A stretch of 64,000 bases of DNA from Myxococcales bacterium. Its GTDB lineage: Bacteria; Myxococcota_A; Polyangia; Polyangiales; Houyiibacteriaceae. Under the pieces are notes generated by a model, which did no database searches, was not told where the DNA came from, and saw nothing but the letters and a program-made list of their open reading frames with translations. A program made the position numbers and the translations under genes. The stretch lies in assembly GCA_029862185.1 (NCBI GenBank), contig JAOTXX010000014.1, positions 1 to 64,000 of the forward strand, read 5' to 3'. Of the stretch, positions 6,508 to 34,038 are shown one piece after another; within the stretch, counting starts at the first letter, position 1; each line of letters begins with the position of its first letter.

Positions 6508-6918
6508 CGTCACTACTCCTAAAGATGTTCGCGTCGCCGGGGCACCAGCGAGCGGACTCGGCGGTAGACCACGGGGTTGACTCTAGGCCGGCGATTCGCC
6601 GTGCCCGAGAGCTCGTTGCCGATCTGTGGCCCGCCGTTGTTTCCAAAAGGTTTCCGACCCCTTTCCTGGAGGAAAAAAGGCCTCCGGATCTGGCCTCCAG
6701 AAGCGGATTGCGACTAGTGTGCGCCTCCAGGGCGGGTTTTCAGGGCGGGGCTAGCCCACTGCGCCCGGATCGCCGGGGTAGAACGATTGCACGTTCGTCT
6801 AACTGCGCGGAACCATTAGTTAATATACGGAAATGGTCATTAGCCCTGATTTGCAGCTGCTACAGAGCGAGTGTAGAATGTTGGCATAGTTGGCTTTTTC
6901 TTGTTGGGGAATTCGTAA
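6508..6918. promoter_or_regulatory. 411-base intergenic region between divergent glnII and a VWA lipoprotein gene
   Basis: It holds no convincing gene. The left part carries the glnII Shine-Dalgarno (AGGAG). The middle has three copies of a gCCTCCrg-like word (near 6680, 6698 and 6724). The right 100 bases are unusually AT-rich for this genome (TTAGTTAATATACGG near 6815), the likely promoter of the lipoprotein gene. A TTGGCAT..TTGGCTTTTT run near 6880 looks like a sigma-54 site but its GG-GC spacing is one base short. Confidence 0.45.
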
Positions 6919-14693: not shown

Positions 14694-15122
14694 CTAAACC
14701 GCGCGAGCAGCGGCGTAGGCTTCGAGTCGCGCGTGCGCCCAATCGACGTCGCGCTGGAGCTCATTGTAGTCCGGACCTTCGTAGAGCTCGTCGTAGGCCT
14801 TGAGAGCCTCTTCCGCCGTGGCTAGCTCTTCACGCACAGCGTCGGGATTGATTTTCTCGGGCGATGCATAGACATCGGTCAAAAGGAGCACCTTGTCCGG
14901 CCCTCCCTCGACGAAGCCGGGGCCGATCGCGGCGATCTTGCGCTTACCCTCGACTTCCCAAACCAAGAGCCCGCACTTGAGCGCGGCCAAGAGCGGAAGG
15001 TGGTTTGGAAGCACACCGAACTCGCCCTCGACGCTGGGCGCCTGCACCGAATCGACTCGAGTGGAAAGCACCGAGCCCTGCGGTGTGACGACGTCGAGCT
15101 GTAGATGTTCGGAGTTCGCCAT
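14694..15122 (-). CDS. atpC: ATP synthase F1 subunit epsilon
   Basis: 142 residues, normal for the subunit. It begins LQLDVVTPQGSVLSTRVDSV and carries GEFGVLPNHLPLLAALKCG, the conserved beta-sandwich core. The C-terminal helical hairpin (residues about 88-142) is present and Ala/Glu-rich. Epsilon links F1 to the c-ring rotor and can inhibit ATP hydrolysis. It follows atpD by eleven bases on the same strand, forming a separate atpDC operon that points away from the other ATP synthase genes at 18.9-23.1 kb. Confidence 0.95.
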   Translation of the reverse strand: MANSEHLQLDVVTPQGSVLSTRVDSVQAPSVEGEFGVLPNHLPLLAALKCGLLVWEVEGKRKIAAIGPGFVEGGPDKVLLLTDVYASPEKINPDAVREELATAEEALKAYDELYEGPDYNELQRDVDWAHARLEAYAAARAV

Positions 15123-15133
15123 CGTTTCGCCAA

Positions 15134-16636
<1,503 letters not shown>

Positions 16637-16763
16637 CTAGCACGGCCCCTGAGGGCGGTCAAAGACGCCAGCCTTCACGAGTTAGGGTCACGTCGCGCTC
16701 CGGCAAGCCCCTGCGAGCGCGCAATTGACCCGCTCGTGCCGGCTTTCTACCATCAGGCTCGTG

Positions 16764-17186
16764 ATGCAGGACCAGGACGCCGTCATCCATGCCCTTCTAG
16801 GCGCCGGAACCCGTTACCAGGGGAAGCTCTTTTTTGAAGGGCGCGCCCGCATCGACGGCGAGTTCGACGGAGAGGTGTTTAGCGACGGGCTCCTCGTGGT
16901 CGGTGAAGAGGCGCGCATCAAGGGCACGATTCGAGTTCACACCTTGATTGTGCGCGGCGGGACGATCGAGGGTGACATCCACGCCACCGAGCTGGTCGAG
17001 CTGCACGCGCCAGCGCAGGTGCGCGGGGACATTCGGACCCAGGCCCTTTTCATGGACAAAGGCGTCGTGTTCGACGGCGCGTGCGTCATGGGCGAGGTGC
17101 TCGAGCTGGTGGATCGCCCAGTTTCGGCGCGGTCCGCCGACGACACATCGCCCGATGGTTACCGGGACCAGCCGAACAGAAACTGA
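16764..17186 (+). CDS. Bactofilin (polymer-forming cytoskeletal protein)
   Basis: 140 residues. The central part (about 10-110) is a run of short hydrophobic beta strands with regular glycines (YQGKLFFEGRARIDGEFDGEV, and later GTIEGDIHATELVELHAPAQVRGDI), the right-handed beta-helix pattern of bactofilins, flanked by short polar tails. Bactofilins polymerise without nucleotide and position cell-shape, polarity or chromosome-organising proteins. A GTG one codon upstream (16761) is an alternative start. Divergent from atpD. Its last 28 bases overlap the convergent gene at 17159 in another frame. Confidence 0.88.
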   Translation: MQDQDAVIHALLGAGTRYQGKLFFEGRARIDGEFDGEVFSDGLLVVGEEARIKGTIRVHTLIVRGGTIEGDIHATELVELHAPAQVRGDIRTQALFMDKGVVFDGACVMGEVLELVDRPVSARSADDTSPDGYRDQPNRN

Positions 17187-17989
17187 ATCGTGAGCGCGTG
17201 ATCGTTGCCGTCGCCGCCGTCGCCCATGGCCGGGACGTTCATGTTCGAACCCGAAAGGCGAAGCCGGTAGTACTCCCAGACGAAGCGCACCGCATAGCTG
17301 AAACCGACGTTCAGCCATCCCTGGAAGGTCACCGCCGCGTCCAGGCCAATCCCCGAGCTCTCGTTTCCGAACGCGTCCTCGAGCCGACCCAGGTAGAATG
17401 GGAAGCGAAGGCCGAAGTCCGCACGGAAGGCCAACAAGCGCGGGACGATCGGATAGGCAAGCGCTGGGCCGAAGCGGGCGTAGATAATCCGCGAGGATGG
17501 CAGAACCGAGTTGAGATCGATGCCGAACACGTCTCCGCCGACCCCGACCAATCCACCGAGCTGGAGTCGGTGCAGTGGATAGAGATAACCGAACTGTCCC
17601 AGCATCCGCCAGCTGTTCGTCTGAAGCTCGATCCCGGATACCTCGGCCTTGAGCCCGATGCCCGAGCCACCGTCGACCTGCACAATGATCGCCTGAACCG
17701 AAGGCCTGGACGGGCGCCGGCCCATCGGACGTACCAAGAGGTGCCAAGCAACATCGAAGTAGGCACCGCTTTCGAAGCTCCGAGTTTCCGTGCCGCCCGC
17801 GCCGTCGCCCAGCTCTAGGTGGATGTTCCTGAAACGTGCGCCCGCGCCGATCCGCATGATCAAGACCGGCAAAACCGCCCCCTCTTCCTGCACGCTTACG
17901 GCGACTTCCTCGTCCGCGAAGGCCTGCCCTGGCCCGACGACGCCCGCCAGGAGTGCGGCGAAGACGTGCAGTCTGAGGCTCTGGCCCAT
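17159..17989 (-). CDS. Probable outer-membrane beta-barrel protein, unknown function
   Basis: 276 residues with a signal peptide (LHVFAALLAGVVGPGQAFA, cleavage near residue 25). The mature part alternates polar and hydrophobic residues in many short strands, for example FGYLYPLHRLQLGGLVGVG and PRLLAFRADFGLRFPFYLG, and ends with a terminal strand HALTIQFLFGWSR. Ending in an aromatic or Arg-flanked amphipathic strand is usual for barrels inserted by the BAM complex. No family name can be given. The start at 17989 gives a compact signal peptide. Confidence 0.7.
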   Translation of the reverse strand: MGQSLRLHVFAALLAGVVGPGQAFADEEVAVSVQEEGAVLPVLIMRIGAGARFRNIHLELGDGAGGTETRSFESGAYFDVAWHLLVRPMGRRPSRPSVQAIIVQVDGGSGIGLKAEVSGIELQTNSWRMLGQFGYLYPLHRLQLGGLVGVGGDVFGIDLNSVLPSSRIIYARFGPALAYPIVPRLLAFRADFGLRFPFYLGRLEDAFGNESSGIGLDAAVTFQGWLNVGFSYAVRFVWEYYRLRLSGSNMNVPAMGDGGDGNDHALTIQFLFGWSR

Positions 17990-18128
17990 TCCCGCTCAAA
18001 GTACCAAGCCCTGAACCGCAGGCCCGCCTTTTCCAGCGTCCGGTTCCCAATTATGGGATTTGGGGCCGGCTGCGTGACGTAACGTCACCATGATCGCCGC
18101 GTAGCAGGGATCGAAACGAGAAGCCGTC

Positions 18129-18728
18129 ATGAGAACGACCGTCATCCGCGCCGCCACTGCCATTGCCCTTTTCGTCGCAGCTTCCGCCAGCCTCGTTGCT
18201 GCCGCCGAGGAATACGACGAAAACGCCGGGATCTTCACCGCCCAGATCCCAGAGGAGGGTTCCAGGATTTCCTGGGGTCAGGCGGTGATCGTCCTCGATA
18301 AGCCGATCGACGAGGTGCTGCCCATCGTTCTGGACTACGGCAACTATGTAGATTTCATGCCCAATTTTACGAAGTCCAGGGTCCTGGCCCAGCGAGGGAC
18401 CCGCGCGATGGTCTACATGGAGGTGAGCGTCGCAAAGGGCGCGATCACGCTCTACGGTCAGCTCAACCTTGCAGAGCGTCCGGAAAGCGGCGATGTGCGG
18501 GTGGTTGAAGCCCACCTCATGGACGGCAACATCGACGCTTTCAGCGCGAGCTTCACCCTCACTCCGATGGACGGTGGTACGCGCACCGAAATCGATTTTA
18601 AGATCTACGTAGACCCAGACATCCCGCTTCCCTCGTCCGTCTTCAGTCGAGAGAACGAGCGGGCGGCCGGGAGAACGGTTCGAGCCCTCCGAACCCGGGT
18701 CTTCGAAGGTCCGCAACGCTCGAGCTAA
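18129..18728 (+). CDS. Secreted SRPBCC/START-like domain protein
   Basis: 199 residues. A signal peptide (AATAIALFVAASASLVAAAEE) is followed by one lipid-binding START-like domain: AVIVLDKPIDEVLPIVLDYGNYVDFMP is the typical first helix region, and the rest alternates strands to a C-terminal helix (VFSRENERAAGRTVRALRTR). Such domains bind hydrophobic ligands; in a periplasmic setting a lipid or quinone carrier role is plausible but unproven. A second secreted protein of this fold, with two domains, is encoded at 44254-45495. The gene lies between the two ATP synthase blocks. Confidence 0.78.
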   Translation: MRTTVIRAATAIALFVAASASLVAAAEEYDENAGIFTAQIPEEGSRISWGQAVIVLDKPIDEVLPIVLDYGNYVDFMPNFTKSRVLAQRGTRAMVYMEVSVAKGAITLYGQLNLAERPESGDVRVVEAHLMDGNIDAFSASFTLTPMDGGTRTEIDFKIYVDPDIPLPSSVFSRENERAAGRTVRALRTRVFEGPQRSS

Positions 18729-18758
18729 ACGAGGCGCAAATCCAGTGCCCGGCCGACC

Positions 18759-18786
18759 TTGACTGGGTTCGGGCCCATGCTAGGAA
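18759..18786 (+). promoter_or_regulatory. Candidate promoter of the atpF'-F-H-A-G operon
   Basis: TTGACT at 18759-18764 and TAGGAA at 18781-18786 with a 16-base spacer lie about 125 bases before the first ATP synthase start. The -35 element is good, the -10 weak. The leader also holds a small hairpin TGGAG-attTc-CTCCA at 18843-18857. Confidence 0.25.
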
Positions 18787-18910
18787 CGCGCGCCGCTAGG
18801 GAATTGGCTTGCCGTAGCTGCGATTCGGCCCCAAACGCCGGTTGGAGATTTCCTCCAGTTGGAGTTTCTTTCCTGCCGGATCTCTGGGTCCACGACGGGA
18901 TTACGCTGCG

Positions 18911-19378
18911 ATGAACGCGCTTTTCACAGCCCTTTTGTCAGAGGGTTCCATCATCGACCTCGACGGCACGATCTGGATTCAGCTCGGCCTGTTTGCGGTT
19001 GCGTTTCTTGTATTCCGGCCCCTCATCTTCCGGCCGATGGTTGCACTCTTCGAAGCGCGGGAGAACGCCATCGAAGGCGCCAAGCTCGAGGCACTTCGCC
19101 TCCAAGACGAGGCCTCCGCAGAAGGCGAGGAGTTCGAGGTCGAGATGCGTCGCATTCGGCTTCAAGCCGGGGAGGAGCGCGACCGCCTTCGAGCTGAGGG
19201 CAAGCGCCTCGAGCGGACCGTGCTCGACCGGGTTCAGGAAGAGACCGACCGGCAGCTCGCGGAGGCCGACCAAAAGTTGAGCAGCGAGGCGACACGGCTT
19301 CGCGCGGACATCGATCGGTCGGTACCGGTGCTGGCGAAGCAGATCGCATCGAAAATGTTGAACCGGGAGGTCCAATGA
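18911..19378 (+). CDS. atpF': ATP synthase F0 subunit b-like (b')
   Basis: 155 residues. One N-terminal membrane helix (IQLGLFAVAFLVFRPLIFRP) is followed by a long charged coiled coil (FEARENAIEGAKLEA to the end), the layout of F0 b/b' stator subunits. It has no signal peptide, unlike the next gene, and the two together imply a heterodimeric b/b' stalk. I chose the ATG at 18911; the region upstream to 18842 in frame is unlike the family. The last four bases (ATGA) overlap the next gene's start, so translation is coupled. Confidence 0.85.
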   Translation: MNALFTALLSEGSIIDLDGTIWIQLGLFAVAFLVFRPLIFRPMVALFEARENAIEGAKLEALRLQDEASAEGEEFEVEMRRIRLQAGEERDRLRAEGKRLERTVLDRVQEETDRQLAEADQKLSSEATRLRADIDRSVPVLAKQIASKMLNREVQ

Positions 19379-20034
19379 TACGCGCATGGTGGCTGATGTT
19401 GCTGGCCCTGCTCGTGGCGTTGCCCGGCCTGGCCTTGGCCGAAGAGCCGCCGCACGAGGCTGGTGCCCACGACCTCGCCGAGGAGCAATCCGAGCACGGC
19501 AGTCACGACGGGCACGGCGAGCTCACCTTCTCGTCGCTGATGAAGAGCCGGGATTTCCAGGGCACTCTCGTCAACTTTGGCGTGTTGGTTCTCCTCATCG
19601 GCTGGGTCATCCGCAAGAAGGGCAACCCCGCTCTTGCAGCGCGCCGCGCCGAGGTCGAACAGGAGCTTGCCGAGGCCCAGCGGCTTCGCGCCGAGGCTCA
19701 GCAGCGGCACATGGAAACCGCAACCCGTCTCGAGAGGCTCGACCAAGAGATGGTCCAGATTCGCGGCGACATGATCAAGGCCGGAGAAGCGGAGCGCGAC
19801 CGAATCGTGTCGCAGGCCGAAGAGAAGGCTGCGCGCATGCGCAAAGACACCGCGTTCCTCATCGAGCAGCAAATCAAGCAGCTTCGAAAAGAGCTCACCC
19901 AGCAGGCGGCGACCGCTGCCGTGGTTGCCGCACAGGACTTGCTCCAACAACGGACGACTGATTCGGATCAAGACCAACTCGCTGAGGCGTACCTCGCTCG
20001 GCTCGATGAGGTCATCGGGGAGCGGCAATCATGA
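19375..20034 (+). CDS. atpF: ATP synthase F0 subunit b with N-terminal signal-like extension
   Basis: 219 residues. Residues 1-22 form a typical signal peptide (WWLMLLALLVALPGLALA, then EE). A His/Glu-rich linker of about 30 residues (GAHDLAEEQSEHGSHDGHG) leads to the usual membrane helix (VNFGVLVLLIGWVI, about 66-80) and a long coiled coil ending in the stator-type helix. Ordinary b subunits begin at the membrane helix, so about 60 residues are extra. Coupled by ATGA overlaps to both neighbours. It joins F1 to the a subunit as part of the peripheral stalk. Confidence 0.9.
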   Translation: MIRAWWLMLLALLVALPGLALAEEPPHEAGAHDLAEEQSEHGSHDGHGELTFSSLMKSRDFQGTLVNFGVLVLLIGWVIRKKGNPALAARRAEVEQELAEAQRLRAEAQQRHMETATRLERLDQEMVQIRGDMIKAGEAERDRIVSQAEEKAARMRKDTAFLIEQQIKQLRKELTQQAATAAVVAAQDLLQQRTTDSDQDQLAEAYLARLDEVIGERQS

Positions 20035-20579
20035 GCGCGCTCGGACGACGGTACGCAAAGGCTCTGTTGGACCTCGCCCGCGAGCAGGGCGAGATCGACA
20101 CGGTTCTGCGCGATGTCGGATTGCTCTCCGACGCTTGGAAGTCGAGCCAAGAGCTGCGCGACATCGTCCAAAACCCGGTGATCCCGAGGCCCGCCCTCAA
20201 GGCCGCCGTCGATGCCGTGATGGAAAAGCTCGGCAGCTCCAAGATCGTCCGCAACACGGTGAACCTGCTCGCCGACAAGGGCCGCCTCGGGCACCTCGAC
20301 GAGGTTCTTGCGGAGCTCGACGCGCTGGCAGAGGCGGAGACCGGACGTGTTCGCGTCGAGGTCGTCAGCGCCAAGCCCTTGGCCGACGCCTATTACGCGC
20401 GCCTTGTGGAGAAACTCAAGCGAGTGACCGATCGAGAGGTCGTGCTCGTAAAGAAGGAAGATCCTTCGCTCATCGGTGGCGTGATCACACGCATCGGGGA
20501 CCAACTGTTCGACGGAAGCATTCGCAACCGGCTGAGCGAGCTTAGGGAAACGTTGCTTGCGAACGGCGATACGCCGTAA
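20031..20579 (+). CDS. atpH: ATP synthase F1 subunit delta
   Basis: 182 residues. It opens [17 protein letters not shown], the conserved first helix of delta, and carries [17 protein letters not shown] and [19 protein letters not shown]. The C-terminal part includes [18 protein letters not shown] and [14 protein letters not shown], the delta signature region. Delta ties the top of the alpha/beta hexamer to the b stalk. The start overlaps the end of the b subunit gene by four bases. Confidence 0.95.
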
Positions 20580-20604
20580 CCGCATCGAATCAGGAGCCTG
20601 CCAA

Positions 20605-22257
20605 ATGCAACTTCGCGCTGAAGAGATTTCCAACATCATCAAGCAGCAGATCGCTTCCTACGAGAAGTCGGTCGATGTGGTCGAGACAGGTACTGTTTTG
20701 ACGGTGGGCGACGGTATTGCCCGCATCTACGGCCTCGAAAGCGCCATGGCGGGCGAGCTCCTCGAGTTCCCCGGCGGTGTCTTCGGCATGGCCCTCAACC
20801 TCGAAGAGGACAACGTCGGCTGCGCGATTTTCGGCTCCGATGTCGGCATCAACGAGGGCGACACGGTCAAGCGAACCGGCCGCATCGTCGAGGTTCCCGT
20901 CGGTCCGGCCCTGGTGGGCCGCGTGGTCAACGCCCTCGGTCAGCCCATCGACGGCAAGGGTCCAATCGAAAGCAAGCTCAGCCGTCGCGTCGAGCTCAAG
21001 GCTCCGGGCATCGTCGCCCGTCAGCCGGTGAGTGAGCCGCTTCAGACCGGCCTCAAGGCCATCGACTCGATGATTCCGATCGGCCGAGGTCAGCGCGAGC
21101 TCATCATCGGCGACCGCCAGACAGGCAAGACAGCCGTCGCGCTCGACACGATCATCAACCAGAAGGGCAAGGGCGTCTACTGTTTCTACGTCGCGATCGG
21201 TCAGAAGCAGTCGACCGTCGCTCAGGTCGTCGACAAGCTCACGCAGTTCGGCGCAATGGAATATACCACCGTCGTTCTGGCCGGCGCTTCCGAGCCCGCG
21301 CCGCTTCAGTTCATCGCGCCATACACCGGCGTGACGATGGGCGAGTACTTCCGCGACAACGGTCAGCACGCGCTTTGCATCTATGACGACCTTTCGAAGC
21401 AGGCCGTCGCCTACCGCCAGCTTTCCCTCCTTCTTCGTCGTCCTCCCGGCCGCGAGGCGTACCCGGGCGACGTCTTCTATGTTCACAGTCGCCTTCTCGA
21501 GCGCGCCGCAAAGATGGCGGAAGACTGGGTCGTCGTGAAGTCGGACCAGGAGCCGGGTCGTCTCGGAAATCAGGTCTTCAGCGGCCCCGAGTCGAAGCAC
21601 GAGGCCGAGGCCGCCGCCAAGGAAAAGGGCGCAGGCTACGCTGCAAAGAAGCTCGCGGACTCGGGTGGCTCGCTCACCGCATTGCCGATCATCGAGACGC
21701 AGGCGGGCGACGTCTCCGCCTACATTCCGACGAACGTCATCTCGATTACCGACGGCCAGATCTTCCTCGAGTCAGACTTGTTCAACTCCGGCGTTCGCCC
21801 CGCCATCAACGTCGGCATCTCGGTGTCGCGTGTCGGTGGTAACGCCCAGATCAAGGCGATGAAGCAGGTCGCCGGCACCCTGCGTCTCGAGCTCGCGCAG
21901 TTCCGCGAGATGGCGGCATTTGCGCAGTTCGCATCCGACCTCGACGCCGCGACGCGGCAGCAGCTTTCGCGAGGTGAGCGTCTCGTCGAGGTGCTCAAGC
22001 AAGGTCAGTTCGTGCCCTGGCCGGTCGACGAGCAGGTGGTGTCCATTTTCGCGGGCACACACGGCTACCTCGATGAGCTTCCAGTCGACTCGATCGGCCG
22101 CTACCAGCAAGAGCTCATCTCGTACCTCAAGGCCGAGCGCGCTTCGATTCTCTCCGACATCGTGTCGAAGGGTAAGCTAGACGACACGCTCGAAGCCCAG
22201 CTGGACGACGCGCTCAAGGCATTTGCAGAGATCTTCGAGCCAACGCAAAACGACTAA
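20605..22257 (+). CDS. atpA: ATP synthase F1 subunit alpha with an internal insertion
   Basis: 550 residues, about 35-45 longer than usual. The P-loop [15 protein letters not shown] (near residue 169), [16 protein letters not shown] and the signature region [17 protein letters not shown] are all normal. Directly after AAK, residues about 304-354 form an extra charged, Lys/Glu/Ala-rich segment before [15 protein letters not shown] resumes; E. coli has about 18 residues in this place. The start at 20605 has AGGAG six bases upstream. Alpha is the regulatory nucleotide-binding subunit of the hexamer. Followed six bases later by atpG. Confidence 0.96.
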
Positions 22258-22263
22258 TCGGAA

Positions 22264-23133
22264 ATGGCAAACCTCAAGGACATCCGGAAGCGCATCGGAA
22301 GCGTCAAGAACACGCAGAAGATCACCCGCGCCATGAAGCTCGTTGCTGGTGCGCGTCTGCGGAAGGCGCAAGAGAACATCGAACGCCTCCGTCCGTACGC
22401 AATCAAGACACTCGAGGTGCTGAGTGGCGTCGCTGCGCGTGTCAATCCCGACGAAGGCATCCATCCCTTGCTGTCTCGACGAGAGCCTAGGCGCGTCATG
22501 TTGGTGGTCCTCACCAGCGATCGTGGCTTGGCCGGCGCTTTCAACTCGAACATCTGCAAGGCAGCGTTCAGCCGCTGGAAACAGCTCGAGGCGGAGGGCA
22601 GCGAGGTGTGCTTCGGCATCATCGGCCGCAAGGGGCGCGACTACTTCACTCGTCGAAACGCCAACATCCGGCACGACTTCCTCGGGGTCTTCGAAGACCT
22701 GAGCGCCGATAAGGCGGGCGAAATCGGACGTTACATCGTCGAAGATTACACCGGGCTCGATCTCGACGCTTGCGATTTGGTCTACAACGAGTTCAAGAGC
22801 GCGATCAATCAGCAGGTCGTCATCGAGCCGTTCCTGCCCATCAAGCCGCTCGAGCTCGCCGACGACCAACTCGGGGAATTCATTTACGAGCCGAGCCAGG
22901 TCGCGTTGCTCGACACCCTGCTTCCGATGCACGTCGAGGTTCAAATCTACAGAGCTCTCCTCGAGTCGGTGGCTTCGGAGTACGGCGCTCGTATGACCGC
23001 CATGGACGCGGCGACCAACAACGCGAGCGATATGATCGACCGGTTGACCCTTCAATACAACCGGGCCCGCCAGGCTGCCATCACCAAGGAATTGATGGAG
23101 ATCATCGGCGGCGCTGAAGCTCTCAACGGCTAA
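22264..23133 (+). CDS. atpG: ATP synthase F1 subunit gamma
   Basis: 289 residues. The N-terminal helix reads LKDIRKRIGSVKNTQKITRAMKLVAGARL and the C-terminal signature helix reads ASEYGARMTAMDAATNNASDMI with the ending LTLQYNRARQAAITKELMEIIGGAEAL; both are diagnostic. Gamma is the central rotor shaft turning inside the alpha/beta hexamer. It closes the five-gene atpF'-F-H-A-G operon; no atpD or atpC follows, since those lie in the divergent block at 14.7-16.6 kb. Confidence 0.96.
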   Translation: MANLKDIRKRIGSVKNTQKITRAMKLVAGARLRKAQENIERLRPYAIKTLEVLSGVAARVNPDEGIHPLLSRREPRRVMLVVLTSDRGLAGAFNSNICKAAFSRWKQLEAEGSEVCFGIIGRKGRDYFTRRNANIRHDFLGVFEDLSADKAGEIGRYIVEDYTGLDLDACDLVYNEFKSAINQQVVIEPFLPIKPLELADDQLGEFIYEPSQVALLDTLLPMHVEVQIYRALLESVASEYGARMTAMDAATNNASDMIDRLTLQYNRARQAAITKELMEIIGGAEALNG

Positions 23134-25102: not shown

Positions 25103-25957
25103 GTGGCTGTTCCCGAGTGCTCGGCTGCGTCACTCGAAGCGGGAGAGTCTCTCGCGGGGACTGCCGTCGAGTCGGTCGATCGCTGGTTGCTTCTGGAAGT
25201 GACAGAGCCCTGGGCGCCCAAGGCCGTTCAAACCCCGGCCTTACCCGAAGCGGTGCGATCGCAGCTCGGCCGTTGGCTCGAAACGCCGCGGTCGCGCTTG
25301 CAGCTCATCCGGCGCCCGGGGCGCTCCGGAAAACGTCCGCTGTTCATGATGGTGTCCTCCGCCGGCGATCGGTCGCGGACGTCGAAGCTCGAGCTAGGCC
25401 GCTACGAAGAGCTCGTCGACCTCGACCTCGACGCGATGCCGGCCGCGCTGAGCGAGCCGATATGCTTGGTTTGCGTGCACGGTCGACGCGATCGCTGTTG
25501 CGGGGTCCTCGGCGGCGCGGTGTTCCGTGCGATTCAATCGCAGGGCGTCGACACCTGGCAGACGAGCCACCTCGGCGGGCATCGTTTTGCCGCCTGTGCG
25601 CTCTGGCTGCCCGACGGCCTGATGTATGGACGGCTTCGCGCCGAGCATGCGCAGCCCTGGGTGACGGCCCGACGAGCCGGGGGGGTCGGTGAGCTCGACT
25701 TGTTTCGAGGCCGTTGCGCGTATGATCGGCCGACGCAGGCCGCGGAGATCGTCGTGCGAAAGCGGCTGGGGCTGCAGACAGCCAATGGGATCGAATGGCT
25801 CGGGACCGACGCGAAGTCCGAGTCGAGCTGGGAAGTACGGTTCCGAATCGCGTCTGGCGAAGAGGTCGTTCGGCTTCGCTTGGCGGACACCGGAGCCACG
25901 CGGCCGGCGAGCTGTGGGGGCGAGGCGGAGGCGGTGACCGAGCTCGTGGAGGGCTAG
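25103..25957 (+). CDS. Sucrase/ferredoxin-like (thioredoxin-fold iron-sulfur) protein
   Basis: 284 residues. The family core reads CLVCVHGRRDRCCGVLGG (about residues 125-143) followed by TSHLGGHRFAACALWLPDG, the paired Cys and His signature of the Suc_Fer-like family, which adopts a thioredoxin-like [2Fe-2S] ferredoxin fold. The physiological partner of these proteins is not established in bacteria. The GTG at 25103 follows the preceding stop by two bases; reading further upstream would overlap the coiled-coil gene. The last 90 residues (VRKRLGLQTANGIEW onward) form an extra domain without obvious motifs. Confidence 0.82.
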   Translation: MAVPECSAASLEAGESLAGTAVESVDRWLLLEVTEPWAPKAVQTPALPEAVRSQLGRWLETPRSRLQLIRRPGRSGKRPLFMMVSSAGDRSRTSKLELGRYEELVDLDLDAMPAALSEPICLVCVHGRRDRCCGVLGGAVFRAIQSQGVDTWQTSHLGGHRFAACALWLPDGLMYGRLRAEHAQPWVTARRAGGVGELDLFRGRCAYDRPTQAAEIVVRKRLGLQTANGIEWLGTDAKSESSWEVRFRIASGEEVVRLRLADTGATRPASCGGEAEAVTELVEG

Positions 25958-26053
25958 GGGGTTGGGTGAGCTGCTTGGGGGGATCGACCTGCTTTTCGGC
26001 GCGACCCCAGCTTCTCCAGGGCGCTGGTTCCCACAATGGGCTAGAAGCGGGGT

Positions 26054-26290
26054 GTGGAACTCTGGTTGCTCGCGCTTTGGGCTCTTTCTGGCGCCGCGCT
26101 TCTGTTCACGCACCTCCTGATGGCTTGGCGCGTGCTGTCGGGGCCTCTCGCTGCGCAGTGGCGCTACCTGGGCTTCCTCGTGCCGGTCTTCACGCCCATT
26201 GTCGCGTGGCGCGGGGGCAACCGCCTTGGCCCGCTCACTTGGGTTCTGTTCTTGGTGATCTATCTCTCCGCGCGCATGATCGAGGTCTGA
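26054..26290 (+). CDS. Small membrane protein ahead of prmA
   Basis: 78 residues with three hydrophobic segments (LLALWALSGAALLFTHLLMAW, YLGFLVPVFTPIVAW, LTWVLFLVIYLSARM). The start is a GTG. Its stop TGA shares a base with the ATG of prmA, so the two are translationally coupled. I recognise no family. Cotranscription with prmA and rsmE is likely, though the proteins those genes encode act on the ribosome and give no hint of its role. Confidence 0.62.
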   Translation: MELWLLALWALSGAALLFTHLLMAWRVLSGPLAAQWRYLGFLVPVFTPIVAWRGGNRLGPLTWVLFLVIYLSARMIEV

Positions 26291-27147
26291 TGTCCGGGGC
26301 GCGCCATCCGTTCGTGACCGTTCGGGTTCGATCCGAGCAGCTCGAGCTCGCGCAGCTGCGGCTCTGGGAGCTCGGCGCGACCGGTCTCGAAGAACGGGAC
26401 CAAACGACCCTGGTGCGCGACGCCGAGTCGGGCGGCGCCGTCGTCATTGCAGCGTTCGCGGATGAGGCGTCGGCGCAGTACGCGCTGCGCGAAATGCGAA
26501 GCGAGTACGAAGCCGATATCCTTTACGTGCCGCGGGCCGATTGGGCCACGGAGTGGCGGCGTGGGTTCGGCGCTCAGCGAATTGGGAAGCGGCTCTTGCT
26601 GCACCCGTCCTGGGAGCCCGCGCAGAGCAAGCCCGGAGACGTGGTTCTCACGATCGACCCGGAGAACGCGTTTGGAAGTGGCGATCATGAAAGCACCAGG
26701 CTCGTCCTGCAGGTGCTCGATGAGCGCGTGGCCGGCGGGGAGCGCGTGCTGGACGTTGGGTGCGGGAGCGGGGTCTTATCGATCGCCGCACTTCGTCTCG
26801 GCGCGGCGTTGGCGTTCGCAACGGACATCGAAGAGGATGCGGTGATCGTGGCCGCGCGAAACGCAGAGCTCAACGGGGTCGCGCCTCGAGTTCGGGCATC
26901 TACGCTGCCATTGGCCGAGGTTGAAGGGGTCTTCGACATCGTTCTTGCCAACATCGAGACCAGGGTTCTCGTAGATATGCCCAATGATCTCCAGGCGCGG
27001 CTGGCGCCTGCCGGGCTGCTGGTCTTGAGCGGCATCCTTCGACCCGAGCGCGAAGAGCTTCTCGCTGCCTACGCACCGATGAAGCTCGAACAGTGCCTCG
27101 AAGAGGGTGAATGGTGCGCCTGCGTGTTGAGGCACGCGGGGCGATGA
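26290..27147 (+). CDS. prmA: Ribosomal protein L11 methyltransferase
   Basis: 285 residues. The S-adenosylmethionine-binding motif I is LDVGCGSGVLSIAAL (about 153-167), preceded by PENAFGSGDHESTRL, the family-typical segment GSGxHxST; a later motif is VLANIETRVLVDM. The N-terminal domain (FVTVRVRSEQLELAQLRLWE, and DWATEWRRGF) is the substrate-recognition part that moves on L11. PrmA trimethylates lysines and the N-terminus of L11. It overlaps rsmE by four bases (ATGA), a common pairing. Confidence 0.95.
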   Translation: MSGARHPFVTVRVRSEQLELAQLRLWELGATGLEERDQTTLVRDAESGGAVVIAAFADEASAQYALREMRSEYEADILYVPRADWATEWRRGFGAQRIGKRLLLHPSWEPAQSKPGDVVLTIDPENAFGSGDHESTRLVLQVLDERVAGGERVLDVGCGSGVLSIAALRLGAALAFATDIEEDAVIVAARNAELNGVAPRVRASTLPLAEVEGVFDIVLANIETRVLVDMPNDLQARLAPAGLLVLSGILRPEREELLAAYAPMKLEQCLEEGEWCACVLRHAGR

Positions 27148-27875
27148 CGCTTCGAAGGCTATACGCGCCCGGATTGCCGAACGAGGGTGGGGCGGTCGTT
27201 CTTGGAGAAGCGTCGAGCCGGCACGTGCGGGTGCTCCGACTCCGAGCTGGCGATGCGGTCGTCCTCTTCGACGGGAAGGGCCGCGCTGCGACGGCCCGCG
27301 TGGAATCGGTCGCCGATGACGTGGTCTGTCTCGCAGAGCCTCCCGTCGCCGCCGCGACGAGGCGCGCACGCATCGTGCTGATGCTTGCCGTTCCGAAAGG
27401 CGCGAAGCTCGATGACTGCGTGCGCGCAGCCACCGAGCTCGGCGTCGATGAGGTCGCACTCATGCAAACCGAGCGAACAATTCCCCGTTGGGATTCCGAG
27501 CGCACGCGCACACGTCTCGATCGGCTGACCCGAGTAGCCGGCGAAGCCGCCACTCAGTGCGAGCGCGACGACGTACCCATCGTTCACGCCCCGCGCCCCT
27601 TCCGCTCATGGCTCGAAGAAATTCCGGTGAGCGCGAAACGGGTCCTGTTTGGAGCCCGTGCCGAGGGATCGGTGACGCTCGATCGCACCACCGAGCAAGT
27701 TTGGTGTGCCCTGGGCCCCGAAGGAGGATTCACCGAGGAGGAGATCGAGCTCTTCGAACGGTCCGGTTTTTCGGTCGCAAGCTTGGGAACCCGGGTCCTT
27801 CGGGTCGAGACAGCCGTGCCCGCTGCCCTGGCGATCGTCGCAGATCGCCTCGGTGACTTCCGACAAGCTCGTTGA
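27144..27875 (+). CDS. rsmE: 16S rRNA (uracil1498-N3)-methyltransferase
   Basis: 243 residues. The N-terminal PUA-like region contains SSRHVRVLRLRAGDAVVLFDGKG. The SPOUT knot is GPEGGFTEEEIELFE (near residue 191) and LGTRVLRVETAVPAAL near the end, both hallmarks of RsmE. It methylates U1498 of 16S rRNA at N3. The ATG at 27144 overlaps the prmA stop; the in-frame ATG at 27111 would overlap prmA by more and is unlike the family. Ends about 36 bases before the MshEN/HEAT gene. Confidence 0.95.
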   Translation: MTLRRLYAPGLPNEGGAVVLGEASSRHVRVLRLRAGDAVVLFDGKGRAATARVESVADDVVCLAEPPVAAATRRARIVLMLAVPKGAKLDDCVRAATELGVDEVALMQTERTIPRWDSERTRTRLDRLTRVAGEAATQCERDDVPIVHAPRPFRSWLEEIPVSAKRVLFGARAEGSVTLDRTTEQVWCALGPEGGFTEEEIELFERSGFSVASLGTRVLRVETAVPAALAIVADRLGDFRQAR

Positions 27876-27911: not shown

Positions 27912-29987
27912 ATGTCCGTTCTTGCCTCGCTCCTGGTTCGCGACCAGGTCATCCCCGTCGATCGCGTCCAAGGAGCCATCCAGGATCAGGTGATGCGCGG
28001 GGGAAATCTCGACACCGTGCTTCTCGAGCTCGGCTTGCTGCGGGAGAACGAAATGAATGCCTATTGCGCGGCGGTGTACGGGCTACTCCCCGCGACGCGC
28101 GATGAGGTGATGCAGACCGCAATCTCCACGATCCGTGTCCTGCCGCGCGAGTTTGCCGTTCGACATCGCTTGATTCCCGTTGCGAGGACCGAAGATGCGG
28201 TCGTACTCGCGGTCGACCGTCCCTTGCCGGATGCCACGCTCCGCGAAATCTCCTTCGAGCTCGGCATCGATCCGGTGCAGCGAATCGTTTGCTCGGTGCG
28301 CGTCGAAGCGGGCCTGGCACTTCACTACGACATCGAGATGACGGCTCGGATGCGGCAGCTCAACCACCAGCTCGAGGCCGCGGACCCCGGCACGATTCCC
28401 TACGTGGCGCCGTTTGAAGGCGTTGGAAGCCGGAGCTCGATCCCGCCGATAAAGGATGGGTCAGGCTCTTTCCCACGTGCCCACTCGTCGATACCCTCGC
28501 CGACGGGCATCGCCGATACCGAGCCGCCCCCCGCCGTGGCGCCGCAGGTGGCCTCTTCGGTTCCGGCGGGCACGTTTCGGGATTCCGATCCCGGGGCAGC
28601 CCGCAGGCACTCGGAGCCGAAGAGCGGTTTCGTCGATGCGACGCGATATAGCCTTCCGCCGCGCCCACCCGAGATCCTCGGACGGCCCTCGATGAGGCAA
28701 AGGAGCTCCCAGCGGCCTTCCGGCCGGAGTGGTCGTACAGCATCGAGGCCAAGCGGGCCGACGAACACATCGCAGCCGGCACCGGCCACGGATTGGCAGC
28801 CTGCGCCGGCACCGGGTTGGCAACCCGCACCCCCGCCCACTCAGCCAGAGTCGGGTTGGCAACCGGCGCCCCCGCCGCGTTCGGCGCATTCCGGGCATCA
28901 TCTTCCCGTCGACCCGCGGCGGGACAACGACGGAAGCGCAATGTCGCACGACGTTGTGTCGTTGCGCCCCGGCGCGCCTAGCTCGGCACCGCCCAATGTC
29001 GACAGCGGGCCGGTCGGCCGGAGGTGGAATCCCGCACCGGCGCCTCTCGTCGACGAGGGCTCGCTCCCGAGCGTCATCGTCGACTTTGGGGAAGAAGTGG
29101 AAGAGCTCGTGGCCGCGCTTCGCGATGGCAGCCCCGAAGACGATATGTTGATCCCACCTCTGTTGGCGCTCGGCGAGGCCGCACTCCCGGCGCTGGCTCG
29201 GGAGTTCCCGGGCGAGCTCTGGTTCGACCGCAACGAGCCGCACGCCAACATCCCGGCGGGCAGGGACGTCTCTCCCATCGCGAGGGCCTTCGTGGCGTTC
29301 GGGGGTCATTCGATCCCGTACTTGATCCCCCTACTCGACAATGAGGACCCGGACATTCGCTACTACGCTTCGGTGATCGCTTCCGAGTTCGTACATCCCG
29401 ACTTGGTGCAGCCCGTTGGTCGTCGTTTGTTCGACACCGACCCGGGAGTCCGCAGCAGTGCGTACCGCGCGCTGAGCGTCCTCTACGCATGCGAGGTCGA
29501 GTTTACCCAGCTCATCGAGCGGCTTCGTGCTTCGGCACGGGATGGCCGAAACGTGGAATCACAGACGGCTTCCATCGACGCCTTGGGAAGGCTGCGCGAC
29601 GCCGAGTCGTTCGAATTCTTCGTTTCCTTGTTGGAAAGCCCAGAGTCCGGCGTGGTCGAGGCTGCTCATGCAAGCCTGGTGCGCCTGAGTTGTCAGGACT
29701 TCAACCGCAGCAAGAAGAAATGGAGTGCCTGGTACGAGAAGCACCGCGTAGAGCACCGTGTGGTCTGGCTGATTAACGCGCTCCTGCACTCCGACGAGCG
29801 CTTGCGTCGGCGCGCCGGTGAAGAGCTCAAACACCTCACCCAGGAGGACTTCGGCTATGAGCCGGGGAAGTCGAAGAAGCTGCGGATCGCTTCGCAGAAG
29901 AAGTATCGGACCTGGTGGGTAGGCGTCGGTTTCCGGATGTTTGTAGAAACACAGCCCGACGGATCTGGTCATGTGTACAGCCGGTGA
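27912..29987 (+). CDS. MshEN-domain protein fused to a HEAT-like repeat domain
   Basis: 691 residues. Residues 1-140 form an MshEN (GspE N-terminal) domain: LLVRDQVIPVDRVQGAIQDQ, LDTVLLELGLLRENEM, and ISTIRVLPREFAVRHRLIPV; some family members bind cyclic di-GMP. Residues about 150-370 are a low-complexity Pro/Ser/Ala/Gln linker with three WQPAP units. The C-terminal third (about 370-691) is HEAT-like: ALGEAALPALAREFPGELW, GHSIPYLIPLLDNEDPDIRYYASV, and it ends with a KKYRTWWVG motif. That region is a paralogue of the protein at 33028-34038. There is no ATPase domain, so it is not a pilus motor. A scaffold or signalling adaptor is likely; inference. Confidence 0.82.
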   Translation: MSVLASLLVRDQVIPVDRVQGAIQDQVMRGGNLDTVLLELGLLRENEMNAYCAAVYGLLPATRDEVMQTAISTIRVLPREFAVRHRLIPVARTEDAVVLAVDRPLPDATLREISFELGIDPVQRIVCSVRVEAGLALHYDIEMTARMRQLNHQLEAADPGTIPYVAPFEGVGSRSSIPPIKDGSGSFPRAHSSIPSPTGIADTEPPPAVAPQVASSVPAGTFRDSDPGAARRHSEPKSGFVDATRYSLPPRPPEILGRPSMRQRSSQRPSGRSGRTASRPSGPTNTSQPAPATDWQPAPAPGWQPAPPPTQPESGWQPAPPPRSAHSGHHLPVDPRRDNDGSAMSHDVVSLRPGAPSSAPPNVDSGPVGRRWNPAPAPLVDEGSLPSVIVDFGEEVEELVAALRDGSPEDDMLIPPLLALGEAALPALAREFPGELWFDRNEPHANIPAGRDVSPIARAFVAFGGHSIPYLIPLLDNEDPDIRYYASVIASEFVHPDLVQPVGRRLFDTDPGVRSSAYRALSVLYACEVEFTQLIERLRASARDGRNVESQTASIDALGRLRDAESFEFFVSLLESPESGVVEAAHASLVRLSCQDFNRSKKKWSAWYEKHRVEHRVVWLINALLHSDERLRRRAGEELKHLTQEDFGYEPGKSKKLRIASQKKYRTWWVGVGFRMFVETQPDGSGHVYSR

Positions 29988-30023
29988 TAGACTTCGCCCG
30001 CATCGCCTAGACGAGCTCCCATC

Positions 30024-32438
30024 GTGCGAATCCCGAGGCTCCTAACCATACTGGGTCCTGCGTCTGTTCTTTACGTTCTGGCCGCGCGGGCCGCTTCGAA
30101 CACCGCCGCCTCCCCGGACTGGTTGGTGGTTTCGCTCTCCCTCGCGTTCTCTTTGACGCCGCTCGCCGTGCTGGGGTCCTGGTCGAGCAGGCGTGGCGCG
30201 TCACGGCTGGCATTCATGGCGGTGAGCCTCGCCATCGCAATTGCGTCCGCGCGCACCAGTTCGCCGCTCCTCGATCTCACACACGACATCGCCTGGCTGC
30301 TCGCAGCGCTGACGATGCTCGACCTCGTCGTGCCGCGCGAGACCGGTTCGCTCGTTCGATACGGCGCCCTCGGAGCTCTCGCGTCGACTGCGTTCGTCGG
30401 GGCCGGCTTGGCGCGCCAGGGGTTGCTTCCGGAAATGACATTTGCGGTCGTGGTGGTCCTCGGGATTCTGGCGACGGGCGCCCTGCACCAAATCGTGCTC
30501 GTGGGCAGAGGACATGTGGTCGAGGGCGGCTTGTCGGGGATCGCGCTGGCCATCCTCGCCGTGGGGCTTGCATACTGCTGGTTCGGTCCGTTCGACGGCG
30601 TGCTCGCCACCACGGTGGAGTTTGGTGTGGCTTCGTTGCTCTGGCTGGGGCACCTCGCCTGGCTCGATCCGGGATGGCGCTCGCTGCGGCGTGTCGGTGT
30701 GCCGGTCGTCATTGCTTCTGCTGTTTGTTTTGCGGTGACGGTGGGCGTTGTTCCCGACGCGCCGCTCGAGCGATGGAAGCTCGGCCTGCTCGCGCTCGGC
30801 TCGGGGGTGCTTTGGTGGCTGACGTTTTCCTTTGCGCGAAGGCTTTCCAATCGCGCCGTATGGAGCACTTCGGGGCGCCTCGCAGACGCGGCGGAAGCCG
30901 CGAGGAGTCGATTGGTCGGAGGCGCGGCACTCGAGGAGGTCGCCACCGGAATTCTCGTGCCCTTCGGCAAGGTCTTCGAGGGTAGCGAAGGGTTCGCGGA
31001 GCTCTACACCTTGGAGCCCTCCCTGAGGCTCCGCCTCGACAGCGGCGAGCGGGCGAATATCAGGCCGGTCAAGGCCCCTGCCACGATCACCCGGACGTTC
31101 TTTGCCGACGGTCACCAGGGGGTTCTTGATCTCGTCAGTCTGCGAGCCCGAGTCGTCCGCGAGGCATCGATTCGAGAGCTCGTCAACACCATGGCAGACC
31201 AAGGGATGGGCTGCGCACTCCCGTGCATGCATCTCGACCACATCGAAGGTGTGCTTCTTCTGCCCCTGGGCGATCGGTCGGAGGCGCTTTCGCGCACCGA
31301 GCTCGACGAGCTTGGACGCTTGGCGGATTCGCTCGGGGGGGCTCTTGCCTCGGCGCTCGCGCAACGCCGGGCCGACACCCACATTCACGAGCTATCCACG
31401 TTGCGGCGTGAGGCGGAAGACCGGATTACGGCGCTCGAGGGGGAGCTCGACCAATTGCGCGGCCAGTGTGACGTGCTCGGACGCGGCCTCGCCGAAGATC
31501 GAACCCTGCACGTGGCGTACAGCCAGTCGATGCGGATTGTGCAGACGCGCGCAATCGAGCTGTCCCCGCTGGCCGATCCGGTTCTACTCGTCGCTCCGGC
31601 CGGCGCTCCGGTGTTGCCTGTCTCCCGCTTCATCCACGACCGCGGGCCGCGCTGGGAGGCACCGTTCGTCGTCGCGGATTGCTCAGCCGCACCGCCCGAT
31701 CAAGTGGCAAGCTTGCTCTTTGGCTCGCAGAGAGAGAGCCGCACGGGTTGGTTTCAGTCGGCCGCGGGTGGGACATTGCTGTTGCGAGACCTTCCAGCGC
31801 TCTCCAAATCAAACCAGGCGCGTCTTGCCGCGGCATTGGCAGAGCAGGGTGCCGAAGAGAACGAGAGCAAAGATCCTCGACCGATGCGCCCAAGGCTCAT
31901 TGCGACCACGCGGGCGTCGCTTGGCGAGCTCGAGCGGCGCGGTGCGCTCGACCCAGAGCTCGCGAGACAATTGACGCGACCAGGTCTCACGATTCCGCCT
32001 TTGCGCGACCGGCGCGAAGACGTTCCATCGCTGGCACTCCTCGCCATTGACCGGGCATGCCGGGTTCTGGCGCGTGAGCCCGTCGGCATCACGGAAGAGG
32101 CGATGGCCGCTCTCGTCGATCACGACTGGCCCGGTGACGTGGCCGAGCTCGAGCTGATCATCGAGCTCGCGGTCGCTGAAGCGTCTTCGAAGACGATCGG
32201 GCTTCGCGACCTGCCCCCGCTCGCTTGGCCCGGGGCCGACGAACAGGAGCCGTTGATCGGTACCTATATCGAAGTCGAGCGCCGTCTCCTCGAACGGACC
32301 CTTCTCCGAGCCGGGGGCAACAAGAGTGAGGCTGCGCGCATGCTGGGCCTGAAGCGTACGACTTTCCTCGACAAGCTTCGGCGTCACGGGCTGGAGCAAC
32401 GCGCGCCGAACGACCTCGGCAGCACGGCGGTTGGCTGA
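30024..32438 (+). CDS. Membrane-anchored NtrC-family protein with degenerate AAA+ domain
   Basis: 804 residues. About eight membrane helices fill residues 1-270. A GAF-like region (about 290-440) and a short coiled coil (about 445-490) follow. Residues about 515-725 align with sigma-54 activator AAA+ domains, but the Walker A slot reads APAGAPVL (524-531), the GAFTGA slot reads SQRESRTG, and Walker B reads GGTLLLRDL instead of LFLDE. Flanking marks remain: LFG, LTIPPLRDRREDVPSL and DHDWPGDVAEL. The C-terminus is an intact Fis-type helix-turn-helix, NKSEAARMLGLKRTTFLDKL. It should bind DNA but cannot hydrolyse ATP or contact sigma-54 normally. GTG start. Confidence 0.85.
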   Translation: MRIPRLLTILGPASVLYVLAARAASNTAASPDWLVVSLSLAFSLTPLAVLGSWSSRRGASRLAFMAVSLAIAIASARTSSPLLDLTHDIAWLLAALTMLDLVVPRETGSLVRYGALGALASTAFVGAGLARQGLLPEMTFAVVVVLGILATGALHQIVLVGRGHVVEGGLSGIALAILAVGLAYCWFGPFDGVLATTVEFGVASLLWLGHLAWLDPGWRSLRRVGVPVVIASAVCFAVTVGVVPDAPLERWKLGLLALGSGVLWWLTFSFARRLSNRAVWSTSGRLADAAEAARSRLVGGAALEEVATGILVPFGKVFEGSEGFAELYTLEPSLRLRLDSGERANIRPVKAPATITRTFFADGHQGVLDLVSLRARVVREASIRELVNTMADQGMGCALPCMHLDHIEGVLLLPLGDRSEALSRTELDELGRLADSLGGALASALAQRRADTHIHELSTLRREAEDRITALEGELDQLRGQCDVLGRGLAEDRTLHVAYSQSMRIVQTRAIELSPLADPVLLVAPAGAPVLPVSRFIHDRGPRWEAPFVVADCSAAPPDQVASLLFGSQRESRTGWFQSAAGGTLLLRDLPALSKSNQARLAAALAEQGAEENESKDPRPMRPRLIATTRASLGELERRGALDPELARQLTRPGLTIPPLRDRREDVPSLALLAIDRACRVLAREPVGITEEAMAALVDHDWPGDVAELELIIELAVAEASSKTIGLRDLPPLAWPGADEQEPLIGTYIEVERRLLERTLLRAGGNKSEAARMLGLKRTTFLDKLRRHGLEQRAPNDLGSTAVG

Positions 32439-32442
32439 GACG

Positions 32443-33027
32443 ATGCAACCGATCCTCCTATGGGACGTGATGGGCACGCTCGTCCACGATCCGTTTTTCG
32501 AGGAGATGCCCGAGTTCTTCGAACTGAGCTTCGAGGAGCTGCTCGCGGTCAAGCATCCAAGCGCCTGGGCCGAGTTCGAGCGGGGGGAACGCAGCGAAAA
32601 GGATTTTCTCGCGAGTTTTTTTGCAGATGGTCGGGATTTCGACCGAGAGGATTTCGTGAGGCGCGTTCGCGCTTCGTACCGATGGCTTCCCGGCCTCGAA
32701 GAGCTTCTCGAGGAGCTTCACGGCGCGGGATGCCGCATGCACGCGTTTTCCAACTACCCGGTTTGGTACAGACTCATCGAAGAACGCCTCAGGCTGTCGC
32801 GGTTTCTCGATTGGACGTTCGTCTCTTGCCTCACTGGGCTACGAAAGCCGGACTCGGCAGCGTACGCACAGGCCTTGGATGCGCTCGGCGTGGCCGGAGA
32901 GCGCTGCGTCTTCATCGATGATCGTGTCGGCAACTGCGAAGCTGCGCGTGATCACAGGATTCACAGCGTGGTGTTCGAAGGGGTCGAGCCCCTGCGCGCG
33001 GCGCTACGGACGGCCGGCGTGCTGTAG
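32443..33027 (+). CDS. HAD-superfamily protein with altered catalytic motif I
   Basis: 194 residues. Motif II (AFSNYP), the motif III Lys (GLRKPDSAAY) and motif IV (VFIDDRVGNCEAA) are normal for subfamily IA. Motif I reads LLWDVMGTLV: the nucleophile Asp is kept but the second Asp, the general acid/base of phosphatases, is Met. Either the enzyme uses another mechanism or it has lost phosphatase activity. The ATG at 32443 follows the NtrC-like gene's stop by four bases, so the two are probably coupled. The stop abuts the convergent HEAT gene with no space. Confidence 0.85.
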   Translation: MQPILLWDVMGTLVHDPFFEEMPEFFELSFEELLAVKHPSAWAEFERGERSEKDFLASFFADGRDFDREDFVRRVRASYRWLPGLEELLEELHGAGCRMHAFSNYPVWYRLIEERLRLSRFLDWTFVSCLTGLRKPDSAAYAQALDALGVAGERCVFIDDRVGNCEAARDHRIHSVVFEGVEPLRAALRTAGVL

Positions 33028-34038
33028 CTATTCGGGGTGGTTCTTTGCCCACCACCGCCGGTAACTCGCCTGGATTGTCAGGAACTGGTCACGGTCCGCC
33101 GTCTCGGACAAGGGCTGCAAGAAGCGGGTCAGATGCCAAAGCTCGCGCGATGCGAGCAAACGAATGTTGGCCCGGCCGTCTCCAAGGCCTTCGATCAGCC
33201 ACTGAATGCGAATTTCGTGACCACGTTCCGATAGCCAGCGGAGCCAAGGGTCCCGCGAAAACCCGAAGTCGTGGGCGGTCAGCACCCTTAGACCGACACG
33301 GCAGGCCGTTGCGATGCCGCGATCGGAGTCAGCCAGCAAATCCACGAACAGGGCCGCCGACGCTTCGTCGCGCAGCTGTGTCAGCGCCGAAATCGCACGG
33401 CGCCGAATAGGGAGCGGCTCAGTGACCTCGGACGCACAGCGGCGCAGCTCGCCGAGGGCGCTTCGGTAGAGCGCTTCATGCTGATAGGCGCTCAGCAAAT
33501 GCAGCGCGACGCGCCGACACTCCCGGTCTTCGTCGAGCGACGCTTGCATCAGCGGCTCGATAAGGCGGGGGCTCGAATACGCCCCGCAGATGACTGCCGC
33601 GTAGTAGCGAACCTTTGGGGTCGGGTGACGCATCAGGCGGGCGAGATATGGGATCGCCTCGCCTTCGAAGGCGGCGAGGGCGGCCGCGATCGCCGAAATT
33701 TCGTCGGGGCGCTGCAGTCGGGAATCCGTGGCCAAGGCTTGGCGCCATAGCGGCCCCGGAAAGCTCTCGGCCAGCTCCTCGAGCGCAAAATTTCCAAGCG
33801 CCATTAGGCGCCTCACCACCGGTGCGATCTCATTGGGGCCGAGAGCGACCAGCTCGTCGACGAGCCTTTGTGCGAGGTCGACGAGGTTTTCCTTGAGGAC
33901 AGGTTGGCTGTCCGAGCCTTGGTCGGCCGACGCGGGCGCCTTGGTGCGGACGCGCGACCCACTATCCTCGGTGCCACCCTCCGGTGCCGCCGGAATGACA
34001 CCCGCGGGTAGCGGGTACTTTCGCCTCGGCCCAGCCAT
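33028..34038 (-). CDS. HEAT-like repeat protein, paralogue of the C-terminal half of the 27912 protein
   Basis: 336 residues. After a basic, Pro-rich N-terminus (GPRRKYPLPAGVIPAAPEGG) comes a helical-repeat domain: VVRRLMALGNFALEELAESF, GEAIPYLARLMRHPTPKVRYY, and a C-terminal SYRRWWAKNHPE. Segment by segment this matches the C-terminal third of the protein at 27912-29987, including the order IPYL, KVRYYA or DIRYYA, the DF segment and the final YR-WW motif. The ATG at 34038 is chosen; an upstream in-frame ATG would cross the divergent oxidoreductase gene. A protein-interaction scaffold is likely. Which partner it binds is unknown; its location invites the two genes it faces. Confidence 0.8.
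   Translation of the reverse strand: MAGPRRKYPLPAGVIPAAPEGGTEDSGSRVRTKAPASADQGSDSQPVLKENLVDLAQRLVDELVALGPNEIAPVVRRLMALGNFALEELAESFPGPLWRQALATDSRLQRPDEISAIAAALAAFEGEAIPYLARLMRHPTPKVRYYAAVICGAYSSPRLIEPLMQASLDEDRECRRVALHLLSAYQHEALYRSALGELRRCASEVTEPLPIRRRAISALTQLRDEASAALFVDLLADSDRGIATACRVGLRVLTAHDFGFSRDPWLRWLSERGHEIRIQWLIEGLGDGRANIRLLASRELWHLTRFLQPLSETADRDQFLTIQASYRRWWAKNHPE

Follow-up and report, generated by a model that had tools for sequence, protein, structure and literature searches.

Introduction

Do four adjacent genes in a myxobacterial genome encode one undescribed signaling system, or are they neighbors with separate histories? The stretch analyzed here (the window, 64,000 nucleotides) is from contig C53 of a 4.29 Mb metagenome-assembled genome (MAG) of the Polyangiales. 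Two of the four genes encode paralogous HEAT-repeat proteins, HEAT-A and HEAT-B, which flank genes for an NtrC-like protein and a HAD-family protein. The initial annotation interpreted this arrangement as a signaling scaffold. We find it about evenly balanced whether the locus is instead a membrane-tethered, ATP-independent one-component regulator situated beside an old, phylum-wide MshEN-HEAT adaptor of the prmA-rsmE region, and thus not a self-contained system. We found no paper on the HEAT-A or the NtrC-like family in the literature that was searched.

The NtrC-like protein lacks ATPase and sigma-54 motifs

The NtrC-like gene (30024..32438, plus strand) encodes a membrane pseudo-enzyme related to bacterial enhancer-binding proteins (bEBPs). 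Its N-terminal half contains about eight hydrophobic segments predicted to be transmembrane (TM) helices (residues 1-277), which were also present in a low-confidence AlphaFold2 model, followed by a tentative GAF-like region (residues ~280-450) and a coiled coil (residues 424-491). The C-terminal half consists of a degenerate sigma-54 AAA+ domain (residues 490-737), with matches to Pfam Sigma54_activ_2 (65 bits), Sigma54_activat (54.5 bits) and AAA_lid_14 (56 bits), and a Fis-type helix-turn-helix (HTH) at residues 745-790 (HTH_8, 41.6 bits). To examine the motifs, 27 orthologues from many families were compared in an alignment that included seven bEBPs from the same loci, and those bEBPs exhibited the expected motifs. 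The Walker A Lys, the Walker B Asp-Glu pair and GAFTGA were each found in 0 of the 27 orthologues. The arginine-finger motif RxDL[YF][YF]R was absent from all 27 as well, having been replaced by forms such as DxELxxxL. The proposal that this protein is a pseudo-enzyme was therefore borne out across the family.

Loss of motifs could reflect a gene in decay. A profile of the TM and GAF-like part matched sequences in 32 genomes of the order, whereas outside the order it gave four marginal matches only (E above 3e-6); this part of the protein is order-specific. In comparisons with two same-genus genomes, dN/dS was 0.15 over the full length of the protein and 0.04-0.08 within the HTH. Order-wide conservation together with these values identifies an old family rather than a decaying gene, which rules out recent pseudogene decay.

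Several atypical bEBPs provide a precedent. VpsR of Vibrio cholerae and the NtrC proteins of Rhodobacter capsulatus and Caulobacter likewise combine an NtrC-type AAA+ domain and a Fis HTH without the sigma-54 loop, and bEBPs lacking GAFTGA have been reported to be active at sigma-70 promoters, in some cases without ATP hydrolysis (PMC10274813). The NtrC proteins of R. capsulatus and Caulobacter are soluble response regulators, whereas the protein described here has an 8-TM membrane domain and, unlike the atypical bEBPs, additionally lacks the Walker A, Walker B and arginine-finger motifs. For the protein described here, this precedent argues for a function by analogy only. We envision that the protein would reside in the inner membrane through its ~8 TM helices, that it may sense a signal via the membrane or the GAF-like region, and that it would dimerize via the coiled coil. 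Its AAA+ domain should neither bind nor hydrolyze ATP, nor should it engage sigma-54. In lineages that carry the HTH, including that of the window, the protein would most likely act as an ATP-independent one-component DNA-binding regulator, either at sigma-70 promoters or by repression.

Two further observations concern this gene. The orthologues of families f5 and f12 (L201-L208) have lost the HTH along with the AAA+ motifs but keep the membrane, GAF-like and pseudo-AAA+ parts. In G014, a single-contig MAG, the gene is broken at about residue 345 and its two parts lie 2 Mb from one another (L148:6259 and L149:6610), with HEAT-A at one place and the HAD and HEAT-B genes at the other, reflecting either rearrangement or misassembly.

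HEAT-A probably belongs to the prmA-rsmE region

HEAT-A (27912..29987, plus strand) encodes a 691 aa protein containing an MshEN domain (residues ~1-150), a Pro-rich disordered linker (residues ~150-385) and HEAT repeats (residues ~385-680). Directly 5' of it is rsmE (27144..27875, plus strand), which was assigned as the 16S rRNA m3U1498 methyltransferase gene on the basis of a Methyltrans_RNA match (144 bits) and synteny. The ATG of rsmE at 27144, a start inferred from sequence, overlaps the stop codon of prmA (25795..27147, plus strand; Pfam PrmA, 202 bits), the gene for ribosomal protein L11 methyltransferase. The true start of prmA is probably downstream of the annotated position 25795.

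As a conserved upstream partner, prmA adjoins HEAT-A across classes. Beyond the order, loci were chosen by HEAT score rather than at random. Among those from the same class and from family f36 whose contig reaches upstream of HEAT-A, HEAT-A directly follows prmA-rsmE in the same orientation in 10 of 10 cases (L181-L184 and L186-L191), at times with a single RDD-family gene intervening; two further loci were cut by contig ends. When control pairs were read by eye in the 16 source genomes, murA and pepA were within 10 kb of one another in 0 of 15, and TAL and pepA in 2 genomes, although the members of each control pair are separated by a few genes in the window, whereas rsmE and HEAT-A are neighbors. 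When 282 genomes across the phylum were searched with a profile, the long MshEN-fused form was also identified in other classes. The HEAT-A family is therefore phylum-wide and old. The locus is best described as an extended version of the Myxococcota prmA-rsmE operon region, in which the ancestral place of HEAT-A would be directly after rsmE and, in some Polyangiales lineages, the NtrC-like gene would have come to lie downstream of HEAT-A.

Gene content around these loci varies. Elsewhere in the class, other families often have an RDD-family membrane gene separating rsmE from HEAT-A (L181-L191), and in family f36 HEAT-A is followed by UbiA and ABC transporter genes.

HEAT-A and HEAT-B are ancient paralogues

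HEAT-B (33028..34038, minus strand) encodes a 336 aa protein that consists of HEAT repeats only. The initial annotation noted that the two HEAT proteins share short segments in the same order. BLASTP aligned the HEAT part of HEAT-A with HEAT-B at 32% identity over 321 aa (E = 1e-34), indicating that the shared order of the segments FPG.LW, IPYL, [IV]RYYA, DF, WLI and YR.WW reflects homology rather than chance, and paralogy was thereby confirmed. The same segments are also kept across the wider HEAT family, which has matches in 54 of 57 related genomes. Tandem HEAT repeats were supported by HEAT_2 matches of 49.5 and 43.1 bits, and profile matches in the PDB were to designed alphaReps and a phycocyanobilin lyase. 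A third paralogue, HEAT-C, is encoded on another contig of the same genome (G000:C88:22194-23069), where it adjoins an open reading frame that we named Rieske-type oxygenase-like from reading its sequence.

A tree of 80 HEAT domains separated the A type (45 sequences of the long MshEN-fused type) from B and C with support of 100/99, and B-type genes are present in other genera. A and B thus diverged long before this genus arose, which rules out a recent local duplication of HEAT-A as the origin of HEAT-B; HEAT-B would instead be an ancient paralogue retained nearby. Both genes are under purifying selection (dN/dS of 0.105 for HEAT-A and 0.04-0.12 for HEAT-B).

The architecture of HEAT-A suggests that it is a cytosolic adaptor in which the disordered linker joins the MshEN domain to a HEAT solenoid that would bind protein partners. 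PomY of Myxococcus xanthus, which is part of a multiprotein assembly (PMC13170346), is another myxobacterial protein that combines disordered regions with a HEAT array. The two layouts differ when the architectures are compared from the published description: PomY has an N-terminal coiled coil, a disordered region, a central HEAT array and a C-terminal part that is mostly disordered and ends with a globular domain, whereas HEAT-A has an N-terminal MshEN domain, the linker and C-terminal HEAT repeats.

The MshEN domain has lost canonical cyclic di-GMP residues

The fusion of an MshEN domain to one of the HEAT proteins raised the possibility of cyclic di-GMP (c-di-GMP) input. The fusion itself was confirmed (33.9 bits against a Pfam cut-off of 23.1), and both 24-residue half-motifs are recognizable with their 5-residue spacer. 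HEAT-A is in this respect homologous to the c-di-GMP receptor MshEN domains of MshE and PilB, which have the same 24+5+24 register (PMC5013675). Those domains are fused to an ATPase, whereas that of HEAT-A is fused to a HEAT solenoid and lacks the canonical RLG and the Gln of the second half. The canonical binding residues are Arg, Gly and Gln within RLG...G...Q (PMC5013675), a pattern that HEAT-A lacks in both half-motifs. In the window, motif I is VLA...Q...Q and motif II is NLD...G...V, such that the Arg and first Gly are gone from both halves and the Gln from the second. These losses are family-wide: most HEAT-A sequences have ALT or VLA and ELD or NLD in place of RLG, and most are without the Gln that ends the second half. 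The NCBIfam c-di-GMP_motif model reached 18.9 bits, below its cut-off of 38.

On the basis of these residues, canonical c-di-GMP input through the MshEN domain was rejected, and the c-di-GMP link hinted at in the initial annotation is unsupported. A module in which HEAT-A binds c-di-GMP via MshEN and relays the signal to the NtrC-like regulator is accordingly very improbable, despite the preserved register, the 22 MshEN genes reported in M. xanthus (PMC5013675) and a motif I that is nearer to canonical (RLSSLLVxDGLV..Q) in three sister-class or sister-family loci; in one sister-class HEAT-A protein it reads RLSSLLVRDGLV. Nevertheless, within HEAT-A it is the MshEN part that is under the tightest constraint (dN/dS of 0.036), implying that it does something. 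The degenerate domain would probably function in self-association or partner binding.

The HAD protein is not demonstrably dead

The HAD gene (32443..33027, plus strand, with its ATG at 32443) was included in the claim that none of the four genes encodes a complete enzyme. Its product matched Pfam Hydrolase (56.6 bits), and motif I was altered, as had been noted, to DVMGT. The nucleophile Asp is intact, as are motifs II-IV (SN, Lys and DD). The protein resembles HAD subfamily IA hydrolases, with Pfam Hydrolase and TIGR01509 scores above cut-off, but the second Asp of motif I, which forms the DxD of HAD phosphatases, is Met in every orthologue seen. Alignment revealed DVM[GD]TLV in all orthologues of four genera (g1, g8, g9 and g11). 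Invariance of DVM together with intact remaining motifs indicates that the change is a family trait and not decay, leaving the dead-enzyme reading of this protein, and with it the claim that the group has no complete enzyme, unsupported.

Linkage of HEAT-A and the NtrC-like gene outside the genus is not above regional background

In the window, the same-strand intergenic gaps are 36 bp between rsmE and HEAT-A, 36 bp between HEAT-A and the NtrC-like gene and 4 bp between the latter and the HAD gene. Because these gaps are short and co-directional, prmA, rsmE, HEAT-A, the NtrC-like gene and the HAD gene could form a single transcript. A promoter and terminator scan of the 25.5-34.5 kb interval gave no signal above that of shuffled sequences. 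HEAT-B and the other three genes of the group converge, the stop codons of HEAT-B and the HAD gene abutting at 33027/33028.

The proposed scaffold would consist of two HEAT arms holding a pseudo-AAA+ core, with all four products forming one undescribed signaling assembly. Same-genus genomes do keep the group, usually in one order, with some assemblies broken, but recurrence within a genus is what same-genus synteny predicts, and the HAD gene is absent from the site in one genome that has the other three there (G004). Beyond the genus, HEAT-A was found within 10 kb of the NtrC-like gene in 9 of 21 genomes, or in 9 of 27 when families f5, f7 and f12 were included. Unrelated pairs of window genes were linked in 14 of 25, 6 of 23 and 2 of 25 of the same genomes, a control made rough by contig ends and differing gene distances. 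The value of 9 of 21 falls within the range of these pairs, and so linkage of HEAT-A to the NtrC-like gene is not above regional background. Counts of co-occurrence were uninformative since HEAT-A and the NtrC-like gene co-occur near-universally in much of the order.

The two genes are not simply scattered through unrelated contexts, being adjacent or near one another in several families. They are adjacent and co-directional with HEAT-A first in L066 (by search coordinates), L074, L083 and L085, and in L089 with one gene between them; at other loci a DNA ligase gene, a kinase gene or further genes intervene. In addition, HEAT-B, the HAD gene and the NtrC-like gene lie within ~15 kb in genus g8 with HEAT-A elsewhere (L098 and L115), and HEAT-B, rsmE and HEAT-A lie within 11 kb in genus g3 (L065). 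These arrangements, together with retention of the group within the genus, are what favor a scaffold. Besides the background linkage, the missing HAD gene and the opposite orientation of HEAT-B, two findings oppose it: G033, a 98% complete genome, has the NtrC-like gene beside prmA-rsmE (L200) with no HEAT-A match found, and profile searches detected no NtrC-like gene in whole classes that have HEAT-A. We consider the scaffold improbable.

Plain synteny would provide a simpler account, in which the four genes are neighbors by descent, functionally unrelated and each acting alone. In its favor, the control pairs lose their linkage at similar rates, the ancient paralogues HEAT-B and HEAT-C are found in varied contexts, and prmA-rsmE accounts for where HEAT-A lies. 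Conversely, the short co-directional gaps and the recurrent order of HEAT-A followed by the NtrC-like gene suggest at least co-transcription. This account is possible, if somewhat unlikely.

The reading that we favor, a membrane-tethered regulator beside the HEAT-A adaptor of the prmA-rsmE region, must itself be weighed against several findings. Several genera and families have HEAT-A and then the NtrC-like gene side by side in the same orientation, so that the two could share a functional link that is genuine yet dispensable. HEAT-A is unlinked to prmA-rsmE in five loci of families f26 and f34 and in 20 of 34 stretches from the order outside the genus, some of these stretches being cut short by the end of a contig. 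The HTH is kept in 17 of the 27 NtrC-like orthologues and missing from 10, mostly in families f5, f7 and f12, and hence DNA binding is not the sole conserved role. The GAF assignment is weak, as Pfam detected this domain in one orthologue only, below cut-off. The AlphaFold2 models, which were based on shallow same-genus alignments, were of low confidence (mean pLDDT of 38), and their helix positions alone were used. Finally, the analysis turned up no DNA site, ligand or partner. A more specific version, in which an order-wide motorless bEBP would tether membrane to DNA and work with an MshEN-HEAT adaptor encoded in a ribosomal methyltransferase operon, is speculative and rather unlikely.

Other features of the window

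The ATP synthase genes of the window (14694-23133) look split. An alpha/beta-family subunit gene (15134-16636, minus strand), followed by a small gene, is apart from and opposite to a group at 18842-23133 (plus strand) that includes the gamma subunit gene. Elsewhere, a short glutamine-synthetase-like protein of 347 aa is encoded at 5470-6513 (minus strand), with a partial match only to the catalytic domain.

Implications

The control comparison indicates that conservation of a neighborhood within a single order gives only weak grounds for inferring a system. In much of Myxococcota an MshEN-HEAT protein is fixed behind prmA-rsmE; its gene is conserved yet unstudied and is testable in a culturable member. 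A bEBP lineage that is without the whole ATPase machinery, has an added membrane domain and is under purifying selection constitutes a natural test of a motorless NtrC scaffold, and the branches that are also without the HTH extend it into a graded series of NtrC-scaffold loss.

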